Notes under the pieces: generated by a model | Told to the model about the DNA's origin: nothing | Seen by the model: only the letters and a program-made list of their open reading frames with translations | The model's database searches: none | Translations under genes and position numbers: made by a program | Shown: positions 25,610-40,216 of the stretch, piece after piece | Numbering within the stretch: position 1 is the stretch's first letter | Layout of the letters: every line of letters begins with the position of its first letter | DNA from: Deltaproteobacteria bacterium | GTDB taxonomy: Bacteria; Desulfobacterota; Desulfarculia; Adiutricales; Adiutricaceae | Assembly (NCBI GenBank): GCA_031264145.1 | Contig: JAISEK010000066.1 | Span: forward strand, 1 to 46,080 | Direction: 5' to 3' | DNA: 46,080 nt

Positions 25610-26845
25610 ATGTCAGCCAACACCGCAATCAAAAAAGGGATATTCGTCATAATTCCAGCCATCATCGTGGCCCTGGCCGCGGCGGCTATCCTTTTTGGCG
25701 TCCTGAGGCAGATCCCGCAGGCGCCGCCGGCGCCCCAGCAGGTCCAGCTGGAGGAGATCAGGCTTCTGCCGGCCTCCTCGACCCTGAGGGCCATTGGCCT
25801 GGTGGAGGCCGACCAGAGCGTCGAGCTCAAGGCCCGGGTCAGCGGCTTCCTGGTTGGCAAGGACTTCGAGGAGGGCAAGAAGGTCAAGGCCGGCCAGGTC
25901 CTCTTCAGGATAGAGCCCGACCAGTACAGGTCCGCCGCCGCCTCGGCCCAGGCCGACCTGGCCTCGGCCCAGGCCCAGCTGGACAAGGCCACGCTGGACT
26001 ACAACCGGGTCAAGGATCTCTGGGCCAAGCGCAGCGCCCCCAAGAGCGACTTCGACAACGCCCAGGCCTCGCTGGACGTGGCCACGGCCGCCGCCCAGGC
26101 GGCCCGGGCCCGCCTGGAGCAGGCCGGGCTGAACCTGGCCTACACCACCGTTAGGGCCCCCTTCGACGGCCTCGTCAGCGACACGCCCTTCTCCGTGGGG
26201 AGCCTTTTGGGCCCCGAGAGCCCCACCCTGGCCACGGTGGTGGCCAGCGACTCGGTCGAGGTGAGCTTCGGCCTCTCGGACAGGGTCATGGGCGGGCTGA
26301 GGCTGGGCGACGAGCGCGGCGGCTTCCCCGGCGGCCGCCTCGACAACGTGAGGCCCAGGCTGCTCATCGGTGGAGCCTACTACGATAGCGACGGGGAGAT
26401 CAGCTACGTGGCCCCCCAGGTCGAGCGCCAGACCGACACGGTCAAGTTCAAGGCCCGCTTCGACAACCCCAGGGGGATCCTGGCGCCGGGCCAGTCCGTC
26501 GTGGTCAGCCTGGAGCCGGTCGTGCCCAGGAGGGTCCTGATCCTCCCCAAGGCCGCCCTCATGACCAGCGAGGGCGCGAGCTTCGTCTATCTGGCCGGGC
26601 CGGCCCCCGACGGGGGCCAGGGCCTGGTGGCCGTCAGCAGGCCGGTGGAGATCGGCCAGGAGTTCGAGGAGGGCTTCGAGATCCTCTCCGGGCTCGCCGA
26701 GGGCGAGCGGGTCATAGTCCTGGGCCTCATGTCGTCCGGGGCCAGGCTGAGGGCCGGCTCCCCGGTGGCGGTCGCGCCGGGGGGGAGCCCTGGGCCGGCC
26801 CCAGGGGCTGACGGCGCCGCCGGTGACGGGGCGGGGGTGGATTGA
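25610..26845 (+). CDS. RND efflux periplasmic adaptor (membrane fusion protein)
   Basis: The 411-residue AcrA/MexA-type adaptor joins an RND pump to an outer-membrane channel. A membrane helix ([21 protein letters not shown], about 10-30) is followed by the lipoyl half-motif ([28 protein letters not shown]), a coiled-coil hairpin ([28 protein letters not shown] to [22 protein letters not shown]), the second lipoyl half, a beta-barrel and a C-terminal membrane-proximal domain. The tail is low-complexity Gly/Ala/Pro. ATG 25610 is chosen because GGAGG sits just upstream and homology begins there. Its stop codon overlaps the next start by one base. Confidence 0.93.
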
Positions 26846-29800
26846 TGCTGTCGCGCATTTTCATAGACCGGCCCCGCTTCGCCATAGTCGTGGCCCTGAT
26901 CATCACCATCGCCGGCCTGCTGGCCCTGATGAGGCTCCCGGTCGAGCAGTTCCCCAACATAGTCCCGCCCGAGGTCAACGTCAGGGCCGTCTACCCGGGG
27001 GCCAGCGCCGAGACCCTGGAAAGCACCGTGGCCCAGCCCATCGAGAGCGCCATGAACGGCGTGGACAACATGCTCTACATGTCCAGCCAGTCCTCCAACA
27101 ACGGCAGGTACGCCCTCACGGTCACCTTCGAGATCGGGACCAACCCCGACCTGAACATGGTCAACGTCCAGAACCGCCTCAAGAAGGCCGAGCCCCTGCT
27201 GCCCACCGAGGTCACCCGCCAGGGCCTGGACGTGGACAAGAGCACCTCGTCCTTCCTCAAGGCCTTTTCCTTCAACTCGCCGGGCGGGACCCTGTCCGAC
27301 CTTGACATGAGCGACTGGATCAGCAACAACGTGGTCGATCCCCTGGCCCGCATCCCCGGCGTGGGCAGCATCAACTTCTTCGGCGAAAGCTACAGCATGC
27401 GCATCTGGATGGACCCGGACCATCTGGCCGGCCTGGGCCTGACCCCCGCGGACATCATCGCCGCCCTGGAGGCCCAGAACATCCAGGCCGCCATCGGCGA
27501 GGTCGGCGGGGCCCCGTCGCCCAGCGGCCAGGAGCTCCACTTCAACCTCACGGCCACCGGCCGCCTGAGCGAGCCGGGCGAGTTTGAGGACATAATCGTC
27601 CGCGCCAACGCCGACGGCAGCCTGATGCGGCTGGGCGACGTGGCCGAGGTGGTCCTGGACTCGGTGGACTATTCCCCCACCGCCGTCTACAAGGGCCGCA
27701 ACGCCACCGGCATGATGCTGACCCAGGCCGCCGGCTCCAACGCGGTGGCCACGGCGGCGGCCGTGGACCGGGCCCTCGAGGAGATATCCCAGCGCTTCCC
27801 GCCCGACATGGAGATGCAGCCCGTCTTCGACGCCACGCTGTTCGTCAGGAGCTCCATCAAGGAGGTCCAGGAGACCATCTTCATCGCCATGATCCTGGTC
27901 ATCGGCGTGGTCTACCTTTTCCTGGGCAGCTGGCGGGCCACCCTCATCCCCATGGTGGCCGTCCCCGTCTCCCTGGTCGGCTCCTTCGCCGTCCTCCTGG
28001 CCATGGGCTACTCGGCCAACACCATCTCCCTTCTGGCCCTGGTGCTGTCGGTGGGCATAGTGGTCGACGACGCCATCGTCGTGGTGGAGAACGTCGAGCG
28101 GGTCATGCGCCAGGACTCCCTCGGGCCAAGGGAGGCCAGCATCAAGGCCATGGGGCAGATCACGGGGGCCATCGTGGCCATCGCCCTGGTCCTTCTGTCG
28201 GTCTTCGTGCCCGTGGCCTTCATTCCCGGCCTTTCCGGCAAGCTCTACCAGCAGTTCGCCGTGACCATCTCGGTCTCCATGCTCATCTCGGCCGTCAACG
28301 CCCTGACCCTCAGCCCGGCCCTCTGCGCCATCCTCCTGACCGCCGAGCACCGCAGGCCCTTCATCGCGGTCAGGATGTTCCAGCGGGTGGTCGAGGCGAC
28401 CAGGGATAGATACCGCGCCCTGGTGGGCCTCCTCCTGAGGCGCTCGGCCTTCGGGCTGGTCGTGGCCGGCTTCTGCCTGGCCGCGGCCATGGGCCTTCTG
28501 AAGTTCACCCCGTCGGGATTCCTGCCCGACGAGGACATGGGCACCTTCATCATCCAGATCGGCCTGCCCGAGGGGAGCCCCCTCAACCGGACCAGGGATG
28601 TCCTGGTCCGGGCCGAGGAGATAGTCTACGGGATCGAGGGCGTCGAGAACATAATGGCCGTCCTGGGCATCAACGTGGTCAACTTCAGCGTCCAGGACAA
28701 CGCCGCCTTCATGTTCGTGGGTCTGAAGCCCTACGATGAGCGGGAGACGCCGGAGACCCAGCTGGCCTACATCGCCAACCAGGCCAACCTGAGGCTGTCG
28801 TCCATCATCGAGGCCAGCTGCGTGGCCTTCACCCTCCCGCCCATCATGGGCCTGGGCTCGGTGGGCGGCTTCGAGTTCATCCTGGAGGACTTCTCCGGCC
28901 GGCCCTCGCCCGAGCTGGCCAGCGAGGCCCAGAAGTTCATAGGGGCCGCCATGCGCGACCCGGGCATGCTGATGGCCTTCACCTTCTTCAACACCGACAC
29001 GCCGGTCCTCAAGGTGGACGTGGACCGCGACAAGGCCCAGCGCATGGGCGTCTCCATCAGGGACATATTCTCCTCCATGCAGTTCTACCTGGGCAGCTAC
29101 TACGTCAACGACTTCAACTACAGGGGCCGCAGCTGGCAGGTCAAGATCATGGGCGGCGAGCTGAGCCGCAAGAACATCGACGACATCTACGCCATCCACG
29201 TCCGCTCCGGGACCGGGGCCCTGGTGCCGCTGTCCTCGCTCCTGACCGTCGAGCTCTCGACCGGCCCCCAGAACATCAGCCGCTACAACAACTACCGCAG
29301 CGCCACCATCATGGGCAGCGGCAAGCCCTGGCTGGGCACGGGCGTGGGCATCGCGGCCATGGAGAACGCGGCCCTCAGCCTGCCCAACGACATAGGCTAC
29401 GAGTGGACCGGTTCCACCTACCAGGAAAAGGAGTCGGCCGGGCAGACCGTCTCCCTCTTCGTCCTCTCCTTCCTCTTCGCCTATCTCTTCCTGGTGGCCC
29501 TCTACGAGAGCTGGACCATCCCCCTGGGGGTCATCGTCTCCATCTCGGCCGCCATCTACGGGGCCATGATGGCCGTCAAGCTGGCCAACCAGAGCCTGGG
29601 CCTCTACGTCCAGATAGGCATAGTCACCCTCATAGCCCTGGCCAGCAAGAACGCCATCCTGATAGTGGAGTTCGCCAAGGAGGCCCGGCAGGAGGGCCAG
29701 ACCATCAAGGAGAGCGCGGCCAACGGGGCCTTCCTCCGGTTCAGGGCCGTCATCATGACCTCCATGGCCTTCCTGGCCGGGCTCCTGCCCCTGGTCTTCG

Positions 29801-30018
29801 CCTCCGGCCCGGGGGCGGCCACCCGCCAGAACGTCTCCATCTGCGTCTTCGGCGGCATGCTGGCCGCCTCCACCGTCGGGCTGATCATCATCCCCCTGGT
29901 CTACGCCATGTTCCAGAAGACCAGGGAGGTCTTCCACCACTGGAGGGGGGCCGATCTCTACGGCCGGTCGTCCATCAGGGAAAGGCCCCACGGTGCCCCG
30001 TCCCAGGACGGCGCCTAG
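26845..30018 (+). CDS. RND efflux pump inner-membrane transporter (AcrB/HAE1 family)
   Basis: The 1057-residue proton-driven exporter has twelve membrane helices in two halves and two large periplasmic loops. The proton-relay residues are present: the Asp-Asp pair in [14 protein letters not shown] (helix 4), the Lys in [17 protein letters not shown] (helix 10) and the Arg in [12 protein letters not shown]. The N-terminus [16 protein letters not shown] and the loop motif [16 protein letters not shown] are typical of HAE1 pumps for amphiphilic compounds. The start codon ATG overlaps the adaptor stop (TGATG), giving translational coupling. No TolC-type channel gene follows. Last residues are charged and low-complexity. 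Confidence 0.95.
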
Positions 30019-30623: not shown

Positions 30624-31046
30624 ATGCGCATAGTAATCGTCGATAGGGATCCCGCCTTCCTGGCCCCGCTGGTGCGGGACCTGGAACGCGAGGGCTTCGA
30701 GGTGACGGTGGCGGAGAACATCTCCGGGGTGCTGTCGTTCATCAAGACCAACAGCCTGCATTTCCTGGTCGCCGACAGCAACCTCCTCGTCGACCACTCC
30801 CTTGGGGCCGACGTCCACCGCCAGTCGCCCCTGACCCGCCTCATCGTCCTGGCCTCGCGCCCGTCCCTCTTGGGCATGATAGAGGCCATCAGCTGCGGCA
30901 TCACCGACTACCTCTCCCGGCACCCCGACAGCTTCGGCCAGCTGGTCGACACCATCCTCGACGAGCGCGACCGCCTCATGCGCTGGCAGTACGCCATCCT
31001 GAGCGAGACCCTTGGCCGGGGCGACAAGGGCGAGGAGAAGGCCTAG
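30624..31046 (+). CDS. Degenerate response-regulator receiver domain protein
   Basis: The 140-residue protein is a single CheY-like receiver. The opening MRIVIVDRDPAFLAPLV keeps Asp7 and Asp9 but has Arg8 in place of the second acidic residue of the pair. The likely phosphoacceptor is Asp51 (FLVADSNLL). The switch Thr/Ser position reads VLASRPS, and the conserved lysine of DYLxKP is arginine (DYLSRHPD). A helical tail (DTILDERDRLMRWQYAIL) follows. The loss of one acidic residue and the lysine suggests phosphorylation is altered or absent. It is the first gene of the chemosensory run, about 100 bases before cheA, in the place where a cheY might be expected. Confidence 0.75.
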   Translation: MRIVIVDRDPAFLAPLVRDLEREGFEVTVAENISGVLSFIKTNSLHFLVADSNLLVDHSLGADVHRQSPLTRLIVLASRPSLLGMIEAISCGITDYLSRHPDSFGQLVDTILDERDRLMRWQYAILSETLGRGDKGEEKA

Positions 31047-31149: not shown

Positions 31150-33855
31150 ATGACCTTCGACGAAGACAGGCTAAGCGAGCTCCTGAATCGGGCCAGCCTC
31201 GATCTGGTCATGGTCTCCAAGGACAACGTCCTGGAGCTGAGCTCCCTCCTCGGCCTGGCGGAGGGGCTGGGCCAGGCCTTCGCCCCCCTGGCCCAGGAGG
31301 ACCCCGGCCAGGATGGGGCCTGGCCTGGCCGGATCGTGGGGGCCATCTCCTCCATCCTGCGCCTGGCCGTCCTCGACCAGCTGCCCGACCCCGACGGGGC
31401 CCTGGAGGCCGTGGGCCTGGGCCTGGGCCTCCTGGAGGAGCTCTCCCGGTGTCTCCCGGCCAAGGCGCCCTTCCAGGGCGACGCGGAGGGCTTCATGAGG
31501 CTCTCGGGCCAGCTTGAGGGCGAGGCCCTGGAAAGGCTCATGGCCGCCGGCGATCCGCCGGCGGGGGACGGGCCGGTCGAGCTTTCCGAGCCCAACGGCC
31601 TCGTCCCCGAGGAGCCCCTGGTCCCCAGGCCCGTCCAGGCCGGCCCAGGCGGCGGGCCCGAGGCGCCCTTCCGTCCCCGCAAGAAGGGGGATGGCCTGGC
31701 CCTCATCGTGCCCACCCCGACCCAGGCCCGCCGTGACGTCCTCCTCCTGACCCAAAAGCTGACGGCCGACTTCTTCAAGGCCGACTTCACGGCCGCCCTG
31801 GAGGACCTGCAGATGAAGCTGGTCTCGGTGGAGCAGAAGACCGACCCGGTGGCCGCCCTGGCCGAGACGCTGCCCCGCTTCAGGGCCATCCTGGGCGGCC
31901 TGAGCCTCTTGGACCTCGACGATCTGGCCCGCCTGGCGGCCGACACCATAGGCCTCATCGACTACGTGGTGGCCGAGCAGGTGCCCCACACGACCGTCGT
32001 CACCGACATCCTCCTGAAGTCATGCTCCTTCATAATCTCCGGCCTGGCGACCATGGCCATCGACCCCGACGGCCGCTCGTGGTCCGTCAGGCCTGGCTGG
32101 GGCGGTGGGGATCTGACCGAGCTCAGGGAGAACCTGTGGGCCGCCCGCCAGGGCATCCTCACGGCCGCCCCGACCCAGGCCGCGGCCTCCTCCGGGGCGT
32201 CCACGGGGGCCAAGCCCAAGCGGCTAGGGGAGATACTGGTCGAGAAGGGCCTCATCTCCGAGGGCGACCTGGGCGGCCTCATCCAGGCCCAGAAGACGGT
32301 CCGCAGCGTGAGGCTTGGCGAGATCCTGGTCAAGGACAACCTGATCTCGGAATCCGAGCTGGAGGAGGCTCTCAGGCGCCAGCAGGACGAGGACAAGGGA
32401 CGGCGGATCGGCGAGATCCTGGTCAGCATGGGCCTCCTGGAGCACGAGCACGTAGAGAGGGCCCTGAAGATCCAGGAGGGCCTCAAGGAGACCAAGCTGG
32501 GGGAGATAATCCTCAAGCAGAAGATTGGCGCCCCCGACAAGGTGGCGGCCGCGCTGAGGGAGCAGAAGCAGAGCGAGGGCCTTGGGGCGGCCACCCTGGC
32601 CGGGGCCGGGGCGGCCCACACGGTCAAGGTCGAGACCCAGAAGCTCGACGGCCTGATCGACCTGGTGGGCGAGCTGGTCATCACCCAGTCGCTCATAACG
32701 TCGAACGACTCGATCAAGGAGCTCAAGGAACAGAAGATTATCAAGGATCTGGCCCAGGTCTCCCGCATAACCTCGGAGCTCCAGCGCAACGCCATGAGCC
32801 TCCGGATGGTCCAGATCAACAACACCTTCCGCAAGATGGGCCGGCTCGTGAGGGATCTGGCCCACAAGTTCGAGAAGGACGTCGATTTCCAGACCCAGGG
32901 GGACGACACCGAGATTGACCGCAACATGGTCGAGTCCCTGTACGATCCCCTGGTCCACATGATCCGCAACGCCCTTGACCATGGCCTGGAGATGCCCAAG
33001 GATCGCCTGGCCGCCGGCAAGTCCCCCAAGGGCATCCTGACGCTCAGGGCCTACCACCAGGGCGGCAACGTGGTCATCGAGCTCTCCGACGACGGCAAGG
33101 GCCTGGACACGGAGAAGGTCGTCAGCAAGGCCGTCGAGAAGGGCCTGATCCAGCCAGGGGAGAGCCTCTCCCAGACGGCCATCCACGGCCTGGTCTTCCA
33201 GCCGGGGTTTTCCACCAACGACAAGATCACCGACATCTCCGGCCGGGGGGTGGGCATGGACGTGGTCAAGAAATCCATCGAGCTCCTCCGGGGGAAGGTC
33301 GACTTCACCTCCAGCCACAACGAGGGCTCCACCTTCGTCATCCGCCTGCCCCTGACCCTGGCCATCATCGACGGCATGATCGTGAGGGTCGGGGAGAACC
33401 GCTACATCCTGCCGACCATCTCCATCAACCAGTCCTTCAGGCCCAAGCCCGAGGAGTACTTCACGGTCAAGAACCAGGGCGAGATGATCAAGGTCCGCGA
33501 CAGCCTGCTGCCCCTGGTCAGGCTCAACCGGCTGGTCAACGCGGCCGAGGCCGTCTCCGATCCGGCCCGGGCCCTGGTGGTCGTGGTCGAGAACGAGGGC
33601 CAGAGGTGCTGCCTGATGGTCGACGAGGTCCTGGGCAAGCAGGAGGTGGTCATCAAGTCGCTCGGCGAGCGCCTCAAGTACGTGCGGACCCTGGCCGGCG
33701 GGACCATCCTGGGCGACGGCAAGGTCGGGCTGATCCTGGACGTCAACGGCCTCTTCGAGGCCGAGGAGGGGCCGGGCCTCCTGGGCGGAGGGGGGGGAGG
33801 CGTCGCCGGCGGGGACGCCGGGGACTGGGACATGGACGACAGCTCCTGGGGCTAG
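31150..33855 (+). CDS. cheA: Atypical CheA histidine kinase: HPt-like domain without its histidine, four MshEN-like repeats
   Basis: The 901-residue CheA has an intact catalytic core: dimerisation domain (about 491-570, VETQKLDGLIDLVGELVI), ATPase N-box HMIRNALDHG (about 603), G1 DDGKGLD, G2 GRGVGMDVV (about 698) and a CheW-like end (about 735-870). Upstream, residues 207-300 align without gaps to an HPt domain (FFKADFTAALEDLQ to LLKSCSFIISGLA), but the phosphoacceptor in AAHTLKG is Arg245 (PRFRAILGG). No histidine occurs before about residue 285. Residues 1-130 form another helical, His-free domain. Residues 358-480 hold four ~30-residue repeats of the form RLGEILVEKGLISExxL, as in GspE/PilB N-termini, where P2 would be expected. 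ATG 31150 is the start by homology; an upstream frame is not protein-like. Confidence 0.9.
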   Translation: MTFDEDRLSELLNRASLDLVMVSKDNVLELSSLLGLAEGLGQAFAPLAQEDPGQDGAWPGRIVGAISSILRLAVLDQLPDPDGALEAVGLGLGLLEELSRCLPAKAPFQGDAEGFMRLSGQLEGEALERLMAAGDPPAGDGPVELSEPNGLVPEEPLVPRPVQAGPGGGPEAPFRPRKKGDGLALIVPTPTQARRDVLLLTQKLTADFFKADFTAALEDLQMKLVSVEQKTDPVAALAETLPRFRAILGGLSLLDLDDLARLAADTIGLIDYVVAEQVPHTTVVTDILLKSCSFIISGLATMAIDPDGRSWSVRPGWGGGDLTELRENLWAARQGILTAAPTQAAASSGASTGAKPKRLGEILVEKGLISEGDLGGLIQAQKTVRSVRLGEILVKDNLISESELEEALRRQQDEDKGRRIGEILVSMGLLEHEHVERALKIQEGLKETKLGEIILKQKIGAPDKVAAALREQKQSEGLGAATLAGAGAAHTVKVETQKLDGLIDLVGELVITQSLITSNDSIKELKEQKIIKDLAQVSRITSELQRNAMSLRMVQINNTFRKMGRLVRDLAHKFEKDVDFQTQGDDTEIDRNMVESLYDPLVHMIRNALDHGLEMPKDRLAAGKSPKGILTLRAYHQGGNVVIELSDDGKGLDTEKVVSKAVEKGLIQPGESLSQTAIHGLVFQPGFSTNDKITDISGRGVGMDVVKKSIELLRGKVDFTSSHNEGSTFVIRLPLTLAIIDGMIVRVGENRYILPTISINQSFRPKPEEYFTVKNQGEMIKVRDSLLPLVRLNRLVNAAEAVSDPARALVVVVENEGQRCCLMVDEVLGKQEVVIKSLGERLKYVRTLAGGTILGDGKVGLILDVNGLFEAEEGPGLLGGGGGGVAGGDAGDWDMDDSSWG

Positions 33856-34117: not shown

Positions 34118-34672
34118 ATGAGTCAAGCAGAAGCGACGGAATCCAACAGCCTGGCGGTCGACCACTCCAAGGACATGAAGTTCCTGAGGTTTGAGCTGGA
34201 CGGGGAGTACTACGGGCTGGATATCCTGAAGATAATGGAGATAAACGGGATGATGGACATCACCGCCGTCCCGCAGACGCCGCAGTTCATGAAGGGCCTC
34301 ATCAACCTCAGGGGCAAGGTCATACCGGTCATCGACCTCCGGCTCAAGTTCGGCCTGCCCGAGCAGGCCTACACCGAGCGGACCTCCATCATCGTGATTG
34401 AGTTCAGGACCGTGGCCGGGACGACCCAGATGGGCATCGTGGTCGATCGCGTCTCCGAGGTCATCACCATAAACCAGGCCGACATCGACCCGGCCCCAGA
34501 GTTCGGGACCCGGCTCAGGAGCGAGTACATAAAGGGCATGGCCAAGACCAAGACCCAGGTCCTCATCATCCTGGACATCGACCTCATCCTGACCGACGAG
34601 GAGCTGACCTTCGGGCCCAGGTCCCAGCCGGCCCCCGACGAGCCCCAGGAGGCCGGCGACGGCCAGCCCTGA
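34118..34672 (+). CDS. cheW: Chemotaxis coupling protein CheW
   Basis: CheW links CheA to receptors. The 184-residue protein has the SH3-like fold pattern: KFLRFELDGEYYGLDILKIMEI, PQTPQFMKGLINLRGKVIPVIDLRLKFG, MGIVVDRVSEVITI and KTKTQVLIILDIDLIL. A Pro/Glu-rich tail of about 18 residues follows. It is preceded by a 262-base GC-rich gap after cheA with no visible gene, and lies 67 bases before cheR. Confidence 0.96.
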   Translation: MSQAEATESNSLAVDHSKDMKFLRFELDGEYYGLDILKIMEINGMMDITAVPQTPQFMKGLINLRGKVIPVIDLRLKFGLPEQAYTERTSIIVIEFRTVAGTTQMGIVVDRVSEVITINQADIDPAPEFGTRLRSEYIKGMAKTKTQVLIILDIDLILTDEELTFGPRSQPAPDEPQEAGDGQP

Positions 34673-34739: not shown

Positions 34740-35630
34740 GTGAGCGACAGATTTCAGCCCGCCCCGGTAGCGGCGCCCTTCCACCAGCCCGAGCTGACGG
34801 ATGCGGAATACCAGACCATCGCGGCCTTCGTCCACAAGGCCAGCGGGATAAACCTGATGGACGGCAAGAAGGAGCTGGTGAGGGCCAGGCTGGCCAAGCG
34901 CATCGGCCAGCTGCAGATGAAGAACTTCAAGTCGTACTTCCAGTACGTCATGACCGACTCCTCCGGCGACGAGCTGGTCTTCCTCCTTGACGCCCTGGCC
35001 ACCAACCTGACCAGCTTCTGGCGCGAGCCGCAGCATTTCGAGTTCATGGCCAAGACCTTCATCCCGGACCTCGAGGCCCGCAGGAGGAAGCCCGGCGGGG
35101 TCGGCCCGCGGATGAGGATCTGGAGCGCCGCCTGCTCCTCGGGCGAGGAGCCCTACACCATCGCCATGGTCGTCCTCGAGAAGAGCCCCTACTTCGCGAA
35201 CGGCGGGGATTTCAGGATCCTGGCCACCGATCTCTCGACCAAGGTGCTCAACGTGGCCAAGCGCGGCCAGTACGGGCCCGAGAGCGTCAAGAACATCCCC
35301 CCGGCCTCGCTGCACGCCTTCATGGCCAAGACCCAGTCCGAGAAGGGCGGCCACATCTACGCCATAAGGCCGGAGGTCAGGCGCATCATCTCCTTCAGGC
35401 GCTTCAACCTCATGGACGCCATGCCCTTCAAGGGGCCGATGGACCTGATCTTCTGCCGGAACGTCATGATATATTTCGACCGGGAGACCATCTCCAGGCT
35501 GATCGACAGGTTCCACGGCCTGCTGGAGCCCGGCGGGTATCTCTTCATCGGCCACTCCGAGAGCCTCTCGGGCCTGGAGCACAAGTTCCAGTACGTGGCC
35601 CCCTGCGTCTACAGGAAGACCCAGCGCTGA
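34740..35630 (+). CDS. cheR: Chemotaxis protein methyltransferase CheR
   Basis: CheR methylates glutamates of chemoreceptors using S-adenosylmethionine. The 296-residue protein has the N-terminal helical domain (YQTIAAFVHKASGINLMDGKKELVRARLAKRI) and the methyltransferase domain, with TSFWREPQHF, the SAM motif IWSAACSSGEEPYTIAM, ILATDLSTKVL and DLIFCRNVMIYF. GTG 34740 is the start, with GGGAG 6 bases upstream. No C-terminal tetratricopeptide extension is present. Confidence 0.96.
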   Translation: MSDRFQPAPVAAPFHQPELTDAEYQTIAAFVHKASGINLMDGKKELVRARLAKRIGQLQMKNFKSYFQYVMTDSSGDELVFLLDALATNLTSFWREPQHFEFMAKTFIPDLEARRRKPGGVGPRMRIWSAACSSGEEPYTIAMVVLEKSPYFANGGDFRILATDLSTKVLNVAKRGQYGPESVKNIPPASLHAFMAKTQSEKGGHIYAIRPEVRRIISFRRFNLMDAMPFKGPMDLIFCRNVMIYFDRETISRLIDRFHGLLEPGGYLFIGHSESLSGLEHKFQYVAPCVYRKTQR

Positions 35631-35749: not shown

Positions 35750-36772
35750 ATGATCAAGGTATTGGTGGTCGACGACTCGGCCATAGTCAGGAAGATATTC
35801 ACCGAGCAGCTCTCACAGGCCAAGGACATAGAGGTCGTGGCCACGGCCCCCGACCCCTTCGTGGCCAGGGACAAGATCCTGGAGCTGCGCCCCGACGTGG
35901 TGACCCTCGACATCGAGATGCCCCGCATGGACGGGATCACCTTCCTGCGGAAGATAATGGCCAACCACCCGCTGCCGGTCATCATCGTCAGCTCCCTGAC
36001 CCCCAAGGGCAGCGCCATGGCCCTGGAGGCCCTGGACTGCGGGGCGGTGGAGGTCCTGGCCAAGCCAGGGGGCTCCTTCTCGGTGGGCGAGATGGGGGCC
36101 CAGCTGGCCGACAAGATCAGGGCCGCCTCCAAGGCCAGGGTCATCAAGCGGGCCCCCTCCAGGGACAAGGGCCAGATGGCCGCCGTCAAGGGGGCCATCA
36201 CCCAGACCACCAACAAGGTCATCGCCATCGGCTCGTCCACCGGCGGCACCGAGGCCCTCAAGGACATATTGACCAGGCTGCCCCCGGACACCCCGGGCAT
36301 CGTGGTGGCCCAGCACATGCCGGCCAACTTCACAAGGGCCTTCGCCGACCGCATGAACGGCCTGTGCCGCATAAACATCAAGGAAGGGGCCGAGAACGAC
36401 AGCGTCCTGCCGGGCACCTGCCTGATCGCCCCGGGCAACTTCCACATGCTCCTGAGGCGCAGCGGGGCCAGGTACTTCGTCGAGGTCAAGACCGGGCCCA
36501 TGGTCCACCACCAGAGGCCGGCCGTGGACGTCCTCTTCAAGTCGGTGGCCAAGTACGCCGGGGCCAACGCCGTGGGCGTCATCCTCACGGGCATGGGCTC
36601 CGACGGGGCCGAGGGCATCAGGATCATGAAGCAGGCCGGGGCCAGGACCCTGGCCCAGGACGAGGCCTCCTGCGTGGTCTTCGGCATGCCCAAGGAGGCC
36701 ATCAAGACCGGCTGCGTCGACAAGGTGGTCTCGCTGCGCAACATGCCCCAGGGCATCCTGGACATGGTCTAG
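35750..36772 (+). CDS. cheB: Chemotaxis protein-glutamate methylesterase CheB
   Basis: CheB removes methyl groups from receptors when phosphorylated by CheA. The receiver domain (1-115) has intact residues: Asp8-Asp9 (VVDDSA), phosphoacceptor Asp54 (TLDIEMPRMDG), SSLT and the lysine in LAKPGG. The esterase domain shows the triad Ser (AIGSSTGGTEAL), His (VVAQHMPANFT) and Asp (LTGMGSDGAEGI). ATG at 35750 follows a 119-base GC-rich gap after cheR. That CheB keeps a fully normal receiver implies that some phosphodonor exists for it, which matters given the missing histidine in the CheA of the same operon. Confidence 0.97.
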   Translation: MIKVLVVDDSAIVRKIFTEQLSQAKDIEVVATAPDPFVARDKILELRPDVVTLDIEMPRMDGITFLRKIMANHPLPVIIVSSLTPKGSAMALEALDCGAVEVLAKPGGSFSVGEMGAQLADKIRAASKARVIKRAPSRDKGQMAAVKGAITQTTNKVIAIGSSTGGTEALKDILTRLPPDTPGIVVAQHMPANFTRAFADRMNGLCRINIKEGAENDSVLPGTCLIAPGNFHMLLRRSGARYFVEVKTGPMVHHQRPAVDVLFKSVAKYAGANAVGVILTGMGSDGAEGIRIMKQAGARTLAQDEASCVVFGMPKEAIKTGCVDKVVSLRNMPQGILDMV

Positions 36773-36783
36773 GGGAAAGGCTG

Positions 36784-37401
36784 ATGGCCGGGAAGGAAAA
36801 CAAAGTCGCCCGCCCCGCGGCCAGGAGGACGGCCAGGAACGCCTCGGCCACCTGCCTGGATCCGGCCAGCGGCCTCTACCACCCCCAGCACTTCCGGCTG
36901 TCGCTCGACTACGAGTACAGCCGCATGGAGCGCTCGGAGAAACCCCTGGGCCTCATAATCCTGCGCCTCCCGGGGGCCGGGGACGGGGCCTTCGCCGCCC
37001 TGTCGGGGTTTCTCAAGGGCACCCTGGGGCCCCTGGACCTGGCCGCCAGGCTGGAGGGCCCGGAGGTGGGCATCCTGATCCCAGAGGCCGGCCGCGACCG
37101 GGCCGCCAGGATCCTCGCGGCCCTGGGCCAGGAATACGGGCCCGGCGGCCGGCTGGCCGGGCCCGCCGCCATCTTCGGGGCCGCCCTGGCCCGTCCCTTC
37201 CAGGGCGGGGGGGCCGATGACCTCCTCAGGAAGGCCAGGGACTCCATGGGCCCGGCCCAGGAGGCGGCCCGGAAGGTCCTCTCGGGGTCCGGCCCCTGGG
37301 CCGAGGCGGACACGGCCCTGGCCGGGCCAGAGCGGGACAGCCTCTTCAACGGCTTCGGCACGCTCTCGCTGGTCTTGAACTCGGGTGGGCGCCGTTCCTA
37401 G
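36784..37401 (+). CDS. Degenerate GGDEF-like protein
   Basis: The 205-residue protein has the layout of a GGDEF domain: CLDPASGLYHPQHFRLSLDYEYSRMERSEKPLGLIILRLPG (matching DxLTGLYNRRYFxxxL and the following strand) and LAARLEGPEVGILIPEAGRDRAARILAALG (matching the active-site hairpin). The GG(D/E)EF signature itself reads EGPEV, and the metal-binding Asp of LDxDxFK is absent. It should not make cyclic di-GMP; binding of a nucleotide or of another protein remains possible. A Pro/Ala/Gly-rich tail follows. It begins 11 bases after cheB and closes the operon; AGGGGAAAGG lies just before the ATG. Confidence 0.7.
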   Translation: MAGKENKVARPAARRTARNASATCLDPASGLYHPQHFRLSLDYEYSRMERSEKPLGLIILRLPGAGDGAFAALSGFLKGTLGPLDLAARLEGPEVGILIPEAGRDRAARILAALGQEYGPGGRLAGPAAIFGAALARPFQGGGADDLLRKARDSMGPAQEAARKVLSGSGPWAEADTALAGPERDSLFNGFGTLSLVLNSGGRRS

Positions 37402-37882: not shown

Positions 37883-40216
37883 TTAAGTGTTACTTTTAAT
37901 TATCTCAATACTGTCTAGGGTATAATTGGAGGTGCAAATATCTAGGTTATCTGGTTTGTTTTGAGGTAAAATTTTTACTGTGGCCAGAAAAAGACCCTTT
38001 GAGGTAAGTGCCGCAGGGACTTGGGCTTCAATATTTAATGACCCTTCCTGGCCCCAAATTGGTTCAGAAGTATCGAAAAGACGTAGTCGAATTTTAGGCC
38101 TGCATTCTTTGGTAATCTGTGTTTGATTATCATTAGTAGATATATTTAATTTTAAAGTAATATTTTTATTTACTGAATCTCTTGGTATATTTACTATAAA
38201 TTTAAAATAATTATTCTTTATTTTCCAATCATTAAATGTATCAATATTGAATAATGATATAAAGCCTTGTTCATTAATATTATCCCTATTATTTAAATAA
38301 ATTTTTCCTGTTTCTGTTTTTCCTCGATGACTATTAAATAAACCTATAAAATTTCTATCTGAAATGATAGTAAAATTCTTTTGAGACTTAAATAAATTAT
38401 AGTAATTATCTATTGTTTGAAAGTTCTTTAGATAAACTAATAGATTAAAATTATTTACTTGATGTCTCTTAAAGATTTCCATAGCTAAAAATGTTATGCT
38501 ATGATCCTGAAAATATAGGTTAATAGGCGTATTTTTATCTTGATTAAAAATCAAATAATTTAATAAATTTAAAATTTCATCAGTTGATTCAGCTTTATAT
38601 AATTTAGTCTGAACACCAATTAATGGTCTTACAGAGTAAAGACTTGATGACCAATAGAAAAAAAGCGCTAAAGATAAAATTATAGTTACAATTTTAGATA
38701 TATTTAGCCACAAATATCTCAAAGTAAATATTATTAAGGCAAATGGAACAAAAGACATGGGCAAAGCAGTAAAAGATGCGTATTTCCATATTTGGTATCT
38801 GTTGCCAAGTGCTATATAAAAAGATATATATATAAGCACAAAAAATATAAATGAAATTCCTATAGCATATATTAGGCTATTAGATATATTTTTATTTGCA
38901 TGATAGATAGTCTTAGAAATATAATTGCTTTTATTTGTTATAAACTTACTAGTACCAAGTAGAAGTAAAATTATGATGATGAATGGCACATAAACTATAG
39001 GTGATATACTATCTTTACTCCAAAAAAAGCCATCATAATAAACAGGAATTCCTGAAAGAAACCATGGTTTAATAAATGGTATGAGCCAACCTGTTGTTTG
39101 TGCAGCCACTTCAAAACTTCTGTAAAAAATATTTAAGGCTACTATCGGCTCCAAAATAGAACTTATTACACATATTACAGATATAGGATAAAAGCACCAA
39201 ATAAGGCTCTGTGTTAATCTCTTACTTATAGGCGAATTATATCCAATAAAATATCCTAATAACGCTAAAATAATTGCTAAAGAAACACAATATACTAAAA
39301 AACCGCCTTGATATGATAGAAAAATTAAAAAAACAGGTGGAAACAACATTTTTAGGTCATTTAATGCAGGCCAACGAGTGTTGGGCCATTTTACCAGCAC
39401 CTCCAAACAAACTAAAAAGGCAAACATACTTACCAACTGGCCCATCATCCCCATGATGACAATATAGTTGTAAAACGCTCCCCCGATTACTCCCAGGGCT
39501 ACCAACACAGAAGCCCAAAAACCTAAGCCAAAAACTTTCGAAACTATTGATAGAATAGCTGTTCCTGACCAGGCAAGCAAGGTAATAGCCAGGGCTGGCC
39601 AAGAAAAAAGGGATGATTCTCCAGAAGCGACAGTAAAAAGAGCAAATATAAAATGAGTACCAAAAGAATCATAAACTTGGAGATAAAAATCTTTACTTAA
39701 AGGCAAAATTGAATAATCAAATAAGCCTTTTATGTAATCGCTTAACATAGCCCAATGGTAATAATCATTGGACCGTGCGAGCCAAGCTTGCATCTTACCC
39801 GTAGACCAACTTGCAGAATATCCACAAGATAGCACTAAAACAAATATAATAGATCCAAATAGTAAATTATAATTCAATATAATATTTATTTTCTCTTTTA
39901 TTTTACTTTTATCTTTCCTGAAATTTTTGTAATAAAATATTAATATTTCTATAATGAAAGATACTATACCTATATAAAATAAAATATATAAAATAATGCT
40001 AAAATTATTTAACCAAGTCAAGAGTATCCAACCAGTCAAGGCAATAAAGGATAACCCAGCAGCCATGACTAATGGTTGACCATACTTAGGCTTGTTGATC
40101 GGATTAAAAAGCTTTAATACAAAACATCCCCAGAAATTAACAGCTAAGGAAAAAGTTATAAAAATAAATAAACAATTAAACATAGAAGTGATAATATTTA
40201 TATAATACTCTGCCAT
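37883..40216 (-). CDS. Large AT-rich polytopic membrane protein, possibly a cell-surface glycosyltransferase
   Basis: The 777-residue protein has about twelve hydrophobic helices in its first 530 residues. Between helices it has NDYYHWAMLSDYIKGLFDYSILP, which resembles the acceptor loop (D-x-x-x-H/Y-W) of C-type lipid-dependent sugar transferases, followed by FGTHFIFALF and an extracytoplasmic region of about 240 residues at the C-terminus (from SLYSVRPLIGVQ). This layout is that of dolichyl/undecaprenyl-phosphate sugar transferases, but no family can be named with certainty. Codon use is extremely AT-rich (Ile, Asn, Lys, Tyr; TTA and ATA codons), unlike any neighbour, which argues for transfer. 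The nearby glycosyltransferase genes fit an envelope-glycan region. The start ATG 40216 has AGG-poor surroundings but GAGGTAATC upstream. Confidence 0.6.
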   Translation of the reverse strand: MAEYYINIITSMFNCLFIFITFSLAVNFWGCFVLKLFNPINKPKYGQPLVMAAGLSFIALTGWILLTWLNNFSIILYILFYIGIVSFIIEILIFYYKNFRKDKSKIKEKINIILNYNLLFGSIIFVLVLSCGYSASWSTGKMQAWLARSNDYYHWAMLSDYIKGLFDYSILPLSKDFYLQVYDSFGTHFIFALFTVASGESSLFSWPALAITLLAWSGTAILSIVSKVFGLGFWASVLVALGVIGGAFYNYIVIMGMMGQLVSMFAFLVCLEVLVKWPNTRWPALNDLKMLFPPVFLIFLSYQGGFLVYCVSLAIILALLGYFIGYNSPISKRLTQSLIWCFYPISVICVISSILEPIVALNIFYRSFEVAAQTTGWLIPFIKPWFLSGIPVYYDGFFWSKDSISPIVYVPFIIIILLLLGTSKFITNKSNYISKTIYHANKNISNSLIYAIGISFIFFVLIYISFYIALGNRYQIWKYASFTALPMSFVPFALIIFTLRYLWLNISKIVTIILSLALFFYWSSSLYSVRPLIGVQTKLYKAESTDEILNLLNYLIFNQDKNTPINLYFQDHSITFLAMEIFKRHQVNNFNLLVYLKNFQTIDNYYNLFKSQKNFTIISDRNFIGLFNSHRGKTETGKIYLNNRDNINEQGFISLFNIDTFNDWKIKNNYFKFIVNIPRDSVNKNITLKLNISTNDNQTQITKECRPKIRLRLFDTSEPIWGQEGSLNIEAQVPAALTSKGLFLATVKILPQNKPDNLDICTSNYTLDSIEIIKSNT

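Follow-up and report, generated by a model that had tools for sequence, protein, structure and literature searches.

CheA normally autophosphorylates on a histidine of its HPt (P1) domain, and the locus described here raises the question of how a chemosensory kinase could signal when that residue has been lost. The window that we analyzed is a stretch of 46,080 nucleotides from contig JAISEK010000066.1 (assembly GCA_031264145.1), assigned to a deltaproteobacterium of the Ca. Adiutricaceae. Within it, an open reading frame at 31150-33855 on the plus strand encodes, from the ATG at 31150, a CheA-type kinase of 901 residues (Table 1). A Pfam search of this protein placed the P3, P4 and P5 core (PF02895, PF02518 and PF01584) above cut-off and returned no HPt domain, and residues 490-868 match solved CheA structures. 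P4 has the ATP-binding and catalytic residues of a CheA: H603, N607, H611, D647, G649, G698 and G702 of the N, G1 and G2 boxes show no or almost no variation across 31 sequences, one of which has Asn in place of D648. An earlier note, written by a model from the DNA alone, was therefore right to call the ATPase core intact. Its statement that the first ~285 residues contain no histidine holds for a long N-terminal stretch, but the first histidine is residue 280. The five-helix domain at the N terminus also occurs in related CheAs outside Ca. Adiutricaceae that carry the MshEN-type repeats described below; we considered it as a second pseudo-HPt, since five helices are predicted, but profile comparison gave a probability of only 9-24 %. 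At the other end of the protein, an acidic tail (33811-33852) includes a DW[G/E/D]M motif in most full-length family members and in genome G040 of the sister family, and CheR/CheB or CheW may dock there.

Table 1. Features of the cheA locus, in coordinates of the window
Feature	Position	Strand	Evidence
Single-domain pseudo-receiver, 140 aa, directly upstream of cheA	30624..31046	+	Sub-threshold Response_reg, 28.3 bits
CheA-type kinase, 901 aa	31150..33855	+	ORF, Pfam, NCBIfam, structure-database sequence matches
N-terminal five-helix domain, aa 1-132; non-HPt by sequence	31150..31545	+	
Pseudo-HPt (P1) domain, aa 205-335	31762..32154	+	Alignment, profile-profile, AlphaFold, Foldseek
Arg245 codon AGG, at the phosphoacceptor His position	31882..31884	+	
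MshEN-type repeat 1, aa 358-381	32221..32292	+	NF053729
MshEN-type repeat 2, aa 388-411	32311..32382	+	NF053729
MshEN-type repeat 3, aa 419-442	32404..32475	+	NF053729; structure-database sequence match
MshEN-type repeat 4, aa 449-472	32494..32565	+	Alignment
P3 dimerization domain, aa 490-550	32617..32799	+	Pfam
P4 ATPase domain, aa 599-736	32944..33357	+	Pfam; catalytic boxes (near-)invariant
P5 CheW-like domain, aa 742-872	33373..33765	+	Pfam
CheW	34118..34672	+	Pfam, operon comparison
CheR	34740..35630	+	Pfam, operon comparison
CheB	35750..36772	+	Pfam, alignment
Degenerate GGDEF protein	36784..37401	+	EGPEV in window where sister genome has GGDEF

The earlier note had placed an arginine, Arg245, where an HPt domain has its phosphoacceptor histidine, and two kinds of alignment agree with it. 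When a family profile (residues 200-338) was compared with one built from intact CheA P1 domains, the probability was 95.9 % and the E-value 5e-9, and Arg245 aligned without gaps to the HPt histidine and Leu248 to the lysine of HxIKG. A multiple alignment with relatives that retain FRPFHTIKG likewise put Arg245 in the acceptor column. Among 30 aligned Ca. Adiutricaceae sequences, the window's included, residue 245 is Arg, Lys or Ser and never His (0/30), and two neighboring residues of the active face of an HPt, Lys and Glu, have been lost as well. The fold itself is retained. An AlphaFold model of residues 198-340 (pLDDT 90.5, pTM 0.85) predicts a P1 fold, and its best Foldseek matches in the PDB are the CheA P1 domains of R. 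sphaeroides, Salmonella and E. coli, with a probability of 1.00 and TM scores by target of mostly 0.7-0.8, although the E-values for this small helical domain are only ~2e-3. The confident model and its structural matches bear out the reading of this region as HPt-like and identify it as an HPt fold that lacks its acceptor; measured against the HPt family (PF01627), the fold is present and the conserved histidine of HxxKG is absent.

We considered three ways in which this loss might be only apparent. A different histidine could have taken over as a universal acceptor, but the only histidine columns free of substitutions in the 30 aligned sequences (603, 611 and 636) lie in P4. A frameshift could hide an HPt domain upstream; however, only about 100 bases separate cheA from the preceding gene, and the HPt profile found no other HPt in the window. 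The earlier note had named both as findings that would have undone its reading, and neither was borne out. Assembly error is rejected because independent metagenome-assembled genomes and a contig titled complete genome (CP026657, strain Smac51) agree.

Orthologues of this CheA are present in most Ca. Adiutricaceae genomes; the orthologous loci come from Deltaproteobacteria isolates, Candidatus Adiutrix isolates and strain Smac51. Candidatus Adiutrix is classified in Desulfarculia, Ca. Adiutricales, Ca. Adiutricaceae; the shared members suggest that the window's family is this one, and from their names and the literature known to us we take these genomes to be from termite or cockroach guts. 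Related CheAs with MshEN repeats were found in Thermodesulfobacteriota, Treponemataceae, Leptospiraceae and Nitrospinota. An otherwise similar protein with an intact FRPFHTIKG-type P1 is encoded in G040, a genome of the same order and a sister family, and in three other relatives, and the P1 histidine is retained in all 25 further readable relatives from the phylum outside Ca. Adiutricaceae. Among the sequences sampled, the acceptor loss is therefore specific to Ca. Adiutricaceae, and it is best explained by P1 having become a phosphorylation-dead pseudo-HPt in the common ancestor of the family. The domain did not go on to decay. Only nonsynonymous distances were compared across domains, because synonymous distances are partly saturated; between close orthologues, dN was about 0.05-0.14 for the pseudo-P1 and 0.06-0.13 for P4, compared with 0.19-0.80 for the linker between the N-terminal domain and P1. 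These rates indicate that the pseudo-P1 is under purifying selection like P4.

Four repeats lie between P1 and P3, and they start exactly at the residues that the earlier note had given for repeats resembling MshEN (358, 388, 419 and 449). The NCBIfam model of the MshE-type c-di-GMP motif, NF053729, scored 70.7 bits against a cut-off of 38, and there are sequence matches to the PilF, PilB and MshE structures. Both results contradict the alternative that the repeats are an ordinary P2 linker, which had been raised as a possible refutation. The tandem motif RLGxx(L/V/I)2xxG(L/V/I)2xxxxLxxxLxxQ is recognizable, with spacers of 6-7 rather than 5 residues and variation at some positions; repeat 4 is off consensus (KLG at its start and Lys for Gly) and is nearly invariant in the family. 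The dN of the MshEN region (0.04-0.10 between close orthologues) shows that it evolves as slowly as P4 or more slowly. Judging by the motif match, the repeats putatively bind c-di-GMP and would thereby gate the kinase.

The degeneration extends to the neighboring genes. The operon order (receiver, cheA, cheW, cheR, cheB, GGDEF-like gene) is maintained across the family. Of the residues that define a receiver (two pocket acids, the phospho-Asp, Thr/Ser and Lys), the upstream protein has lost the second acid throughout the family (VDRD, VGRD or VSRD) and, in most members, has Arg in place of the conserved Lys; the phosphoacceptor Asp is usually kept, with Glu in two Ca. Adiutrix. The same receiver is intact in the sister-family genomes G040 and G038. 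Similarly, the GGDEF motif is absent from the operon's GGDEF protein across the family; G040 has RYGGDEF, and its protein scores 160 bits versus 21-30 in the window. The genome retains five strong GGDEF domains. In CheB, by contrast with these modules, the receiver residues D8, D9, D54, T84 and K105 are invariant in 27/27 sequences, as are S163, H189 and D285, the presumed catalytic triad. The catalytic losses in P1, receiver and GGDEF, set against an intact P4 and CheB, indicate that the output modules of the operon degenerated while its kinase core and the enzymes of adaptation did not. With the P1 acceptor gone and two operon partners degenerate, the signal must exit by an unusual route. 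An RND-type transporter gene (26842-30018) lies just upstream of the che operon, here and in many orthologous loci. Downstream, a 777-codon frame at 37883-40216, rich in A+T-type codons and with many hydrophobic stretches and no Pfam match, adjoins a glycosyltransferase-like gene; the rest of the window is G+C-rich, and the frame is possibly a recent acquisition.

We then turned to other HPt domains that might receive the phosphoryl group. A search of the window and 31 orthologous neighborhoods with the HPt profile recovered its positive controls and found nothing beyond the pseudo-P1, so the operon has no partner of the kind found beside bipartite CheAs of the CheA3/CheA4 type. The window's genome as a whole gave nine HPt matches: three in other CheAs, most of the others in long hybrid-kinase-like reading frames and one in a 320-codon frame (G000 contig C166, L139:4598-5407). 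This last frame encodes a stand-alone CheA-type HPt with the motif LHTIKGNSGF, followed by a STAS-like region whose assignment is below Pfam cut-offs. A search for stand-alone HPt genes, one of the checks proposed for this locus, thus yielded a candidate outside the operon, and each of the 11 genomes to which the HPt profile was applied encodes a counterpart whose LHTIKG-type motif is intact. The HPt/STAS-like gene occurs in most of the family's 37 genomes, and in one search its strong matches were confined to Ca. Adiutricaceae and two genomes of the same order, G040 and G039. Shorter stand-alone HPts (117-195-codon frames) were rejected as partners, being present in only some genomes and seen in neither the window's nor the Smac51 genome. 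In one of the other CheAs of the window's genome (contig C78), the P3 and HPt matches share a strand and a 740-codon frame, with P3 the more upstream of the two; its HPt seems to follow the kinase core.

Several observations bear on whether the HPt/STAS-like protein serves this kinase. The genome G023 (same family, 91 % complete) has no CheA match and only one weak GGDEF match, an apparent joint loss of chemosensing and c-di-GMP, and its HPt/STAS-like match crosses four stops (two TAG and two TAA). This pattern, together with the distribution of the gene, makes the protein the best candidate for the missing acceptor and hence a candidate partner of this CheA. No genomic linkage was found between the gene and the che operon. 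In G040 it coexists with an MshEN-CheA bearing an intact P1, and in G026 (81 % complete) it is present and MshEN-CheA was not detected; these two patterns suggest that the protein may serve another kinase. An HPt-domain tree and pairwise identities, the latter covering 2 of 13 STAS-type sequences, gave no clear tie to this kinase. In the five genomes read, the translated sequence places the gene beside nucleotide-sugar genes, and at G002 Pfam identified neighbors of the Gfo/Idh/MocA-hexapeptide, DegT aminotransferase and UDP-sugar dehydrogenase types. The gene could possibly link chemosensing to surface polysaccharide.

The earlier note had offered three outcomes (phosphoryl output elsewhere, CheA as a scaffold, or an HPt in trans), all of which are still the right candidates. 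The evidence leans to the last, since the catalytic residues of P4 and those of the CheB receiver are conserved essentially without change and all 11 scanned genomes encode a stand-alone HPt of the CheA type, and we hold with roughly even confidence that a c-di-GMP-gated CheA phosphorylates an HPt in trans, with the pseudo-P1 and pseudo-receiver kept as docking parts. Receptors and c-di-GMP on the MshEN repeats would set P4 activity, and P4 would phosphorylate an HPt in trans, most likely that of the HPt/STAS-like protein, much as R. sphaeroides CheA4 phosphorylates CheA3. The phosphorylated HPt would then serve CheB and a distant response regulator. The pseudo-P1 would be kept for its shape, as would fit a non-catalytic docking or regulatory part, and the pseudo-receiver may play a similar role. 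Transphosphorylation is favored because P4 and CheB would otherwise need no invariant catalytic residues; with the CheB receiver intact in 27/27 sequences, a phosphodonor should still exist. The degenerate operon receiver fits a loss of phospho-output just as well.

Such a loss is the core of the main competing explanation, in which the array signals without phosphotransfer: the pseudo-P1 and pseudo-receiver would be constitutively bound to one another, P4 would act as a nucleotide-driven conformational switch and c-di-GMP on MshEN would be the real input. Because the active faces of the receiver and of P1 were lost jointly, we treat this as a serious, if unlikely, alternative. HPt, receiver and GGDEF of one operon were all catalytically lost in one clade, with the proteins kept, and all are intact in G040; the neighborhood contains no HPt; and MshEN evolves no faster than P4. 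Against it, a pure scaffold would have no need of the essentially invariant catalytic residues of P4 and receiver residues of CheB, and R. sphaeroides CheA3, whose kinase function is lost, has also lost elements of P4 (PMC10782961). The fuller version, in which a complete chemosensory operon was converted into a c-di-GMP-reading array with pseudo-HPt, pseudo-receiver and pseudo-GGDEF as interaction parts, P4 as a nucleotide switch and CheR/CheB adaptation still running, strikes us as rather doubtful.

Phosphotransfer could also stay within the chemosensory arrays. The window's genome encodes three further CheAs, each with an intact HPt, and most genomes counted have a similar number, so the kinase might phosphorylate their P1 domains in mixed arrays instead of the HPt/STAS-like protein. 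Their P3 domains are divergent (PF02895 at 44, 26 and 26 bits, compared with 56 for this CheA), which makes mixed dimers doubtful and this route improbable. Phosphorylation in cis on another residue is very unlikely: H280, H432 and H434 are conserved in 26/30, 25/30 and 28/30 sequences, but Tyr, Arg or Gln takes their place in the other sequences, none occupies the site of the acceptor, and the active face is also without its Lys and Glu. That these host-associated bacteria retain the whole system only as a decaying relic we regard as extremely unlikely; the small genomes of the group and the lack of a detectable CheA in G023 would fit, but dN is low relative to dS in pseudo-P1, MshEN and P4, and the operon order has been maintained across the family.

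The closest known systems each share part of this arrangement. The association of MshEN with CheA was reported by Wang et al. 2016 (PMC5013675), and the proteins described here have the same c-di-GMP-type repeats between P1 and P3; they differ in that all 25 readable outside relatives keep the P1 histidine. The earlier note interpreted the P1 fold and the repeats correctly but overlooked both this known architecture and the degenerate receiver and GGDEF neighbors. Berry et al. 2023 (PMC10782961) surveyed thousands of CheAs and concluded that an HPt exists for every one of them, either in cis or encoded in the operon, apparent exceptions being explained by contig ends or an operon HPt gene; the Ca. 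Adiutricaceae protein has neither a P1 with an acceptor histidine nor an operon HPt gene. That study also describes the R. sphaeroides CheA3/CheA4 pair and extra HPts without histidine in Pseudomonas aeruginosa ChpA. Like CheA4, the present kinase has P3-P4-P5 without an acceptor of its own and must use an HPt in trans if it is to transfer phosphate, but CheA4 lacks P1 altogether and has its partner in the same operon, whereas here a dead P1 is under selection in an operon without an HPt. ChpA likewise contains an HPt fold without the conserved histidine, but alongside several intact HPts in cis, whereas the sole P1 of the Ca. Adiutricaceae CheA is dead. Caulobacter ShkA (PMC7010744) is a c-di-GMP-controlled histidine kinase involving a non-catalytic pseudo-receiver, a control that is putative here; it is not a CheA, and its own pseudo-receiver binds c-di-GMP and is in the same chain.

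MshEN-CheA fusions were thus already known; what is new is a variant in which a whole clade has lost the P1 site and has no HPt in the operon. We found no paper on such a CheA clade in the open-access texts searched, and a clade in which the sole P1 is dead, the operon lacks an HPt and the partner receiver is degenerate falls outside the cases of Berry et al. 2023. The clade is an exception to the rule of that survey (PMC10782961); it has kept its kinase residues, and its dead domain is subject to selection. As a naturally occurring test case, it can address which roles P1 has other than accepting phosphate, how far apart the genes of a kinase and its substrate can be, and whether c-di-GMP signaling by a chemosensory array is possible in the absence of phosphotransfer.
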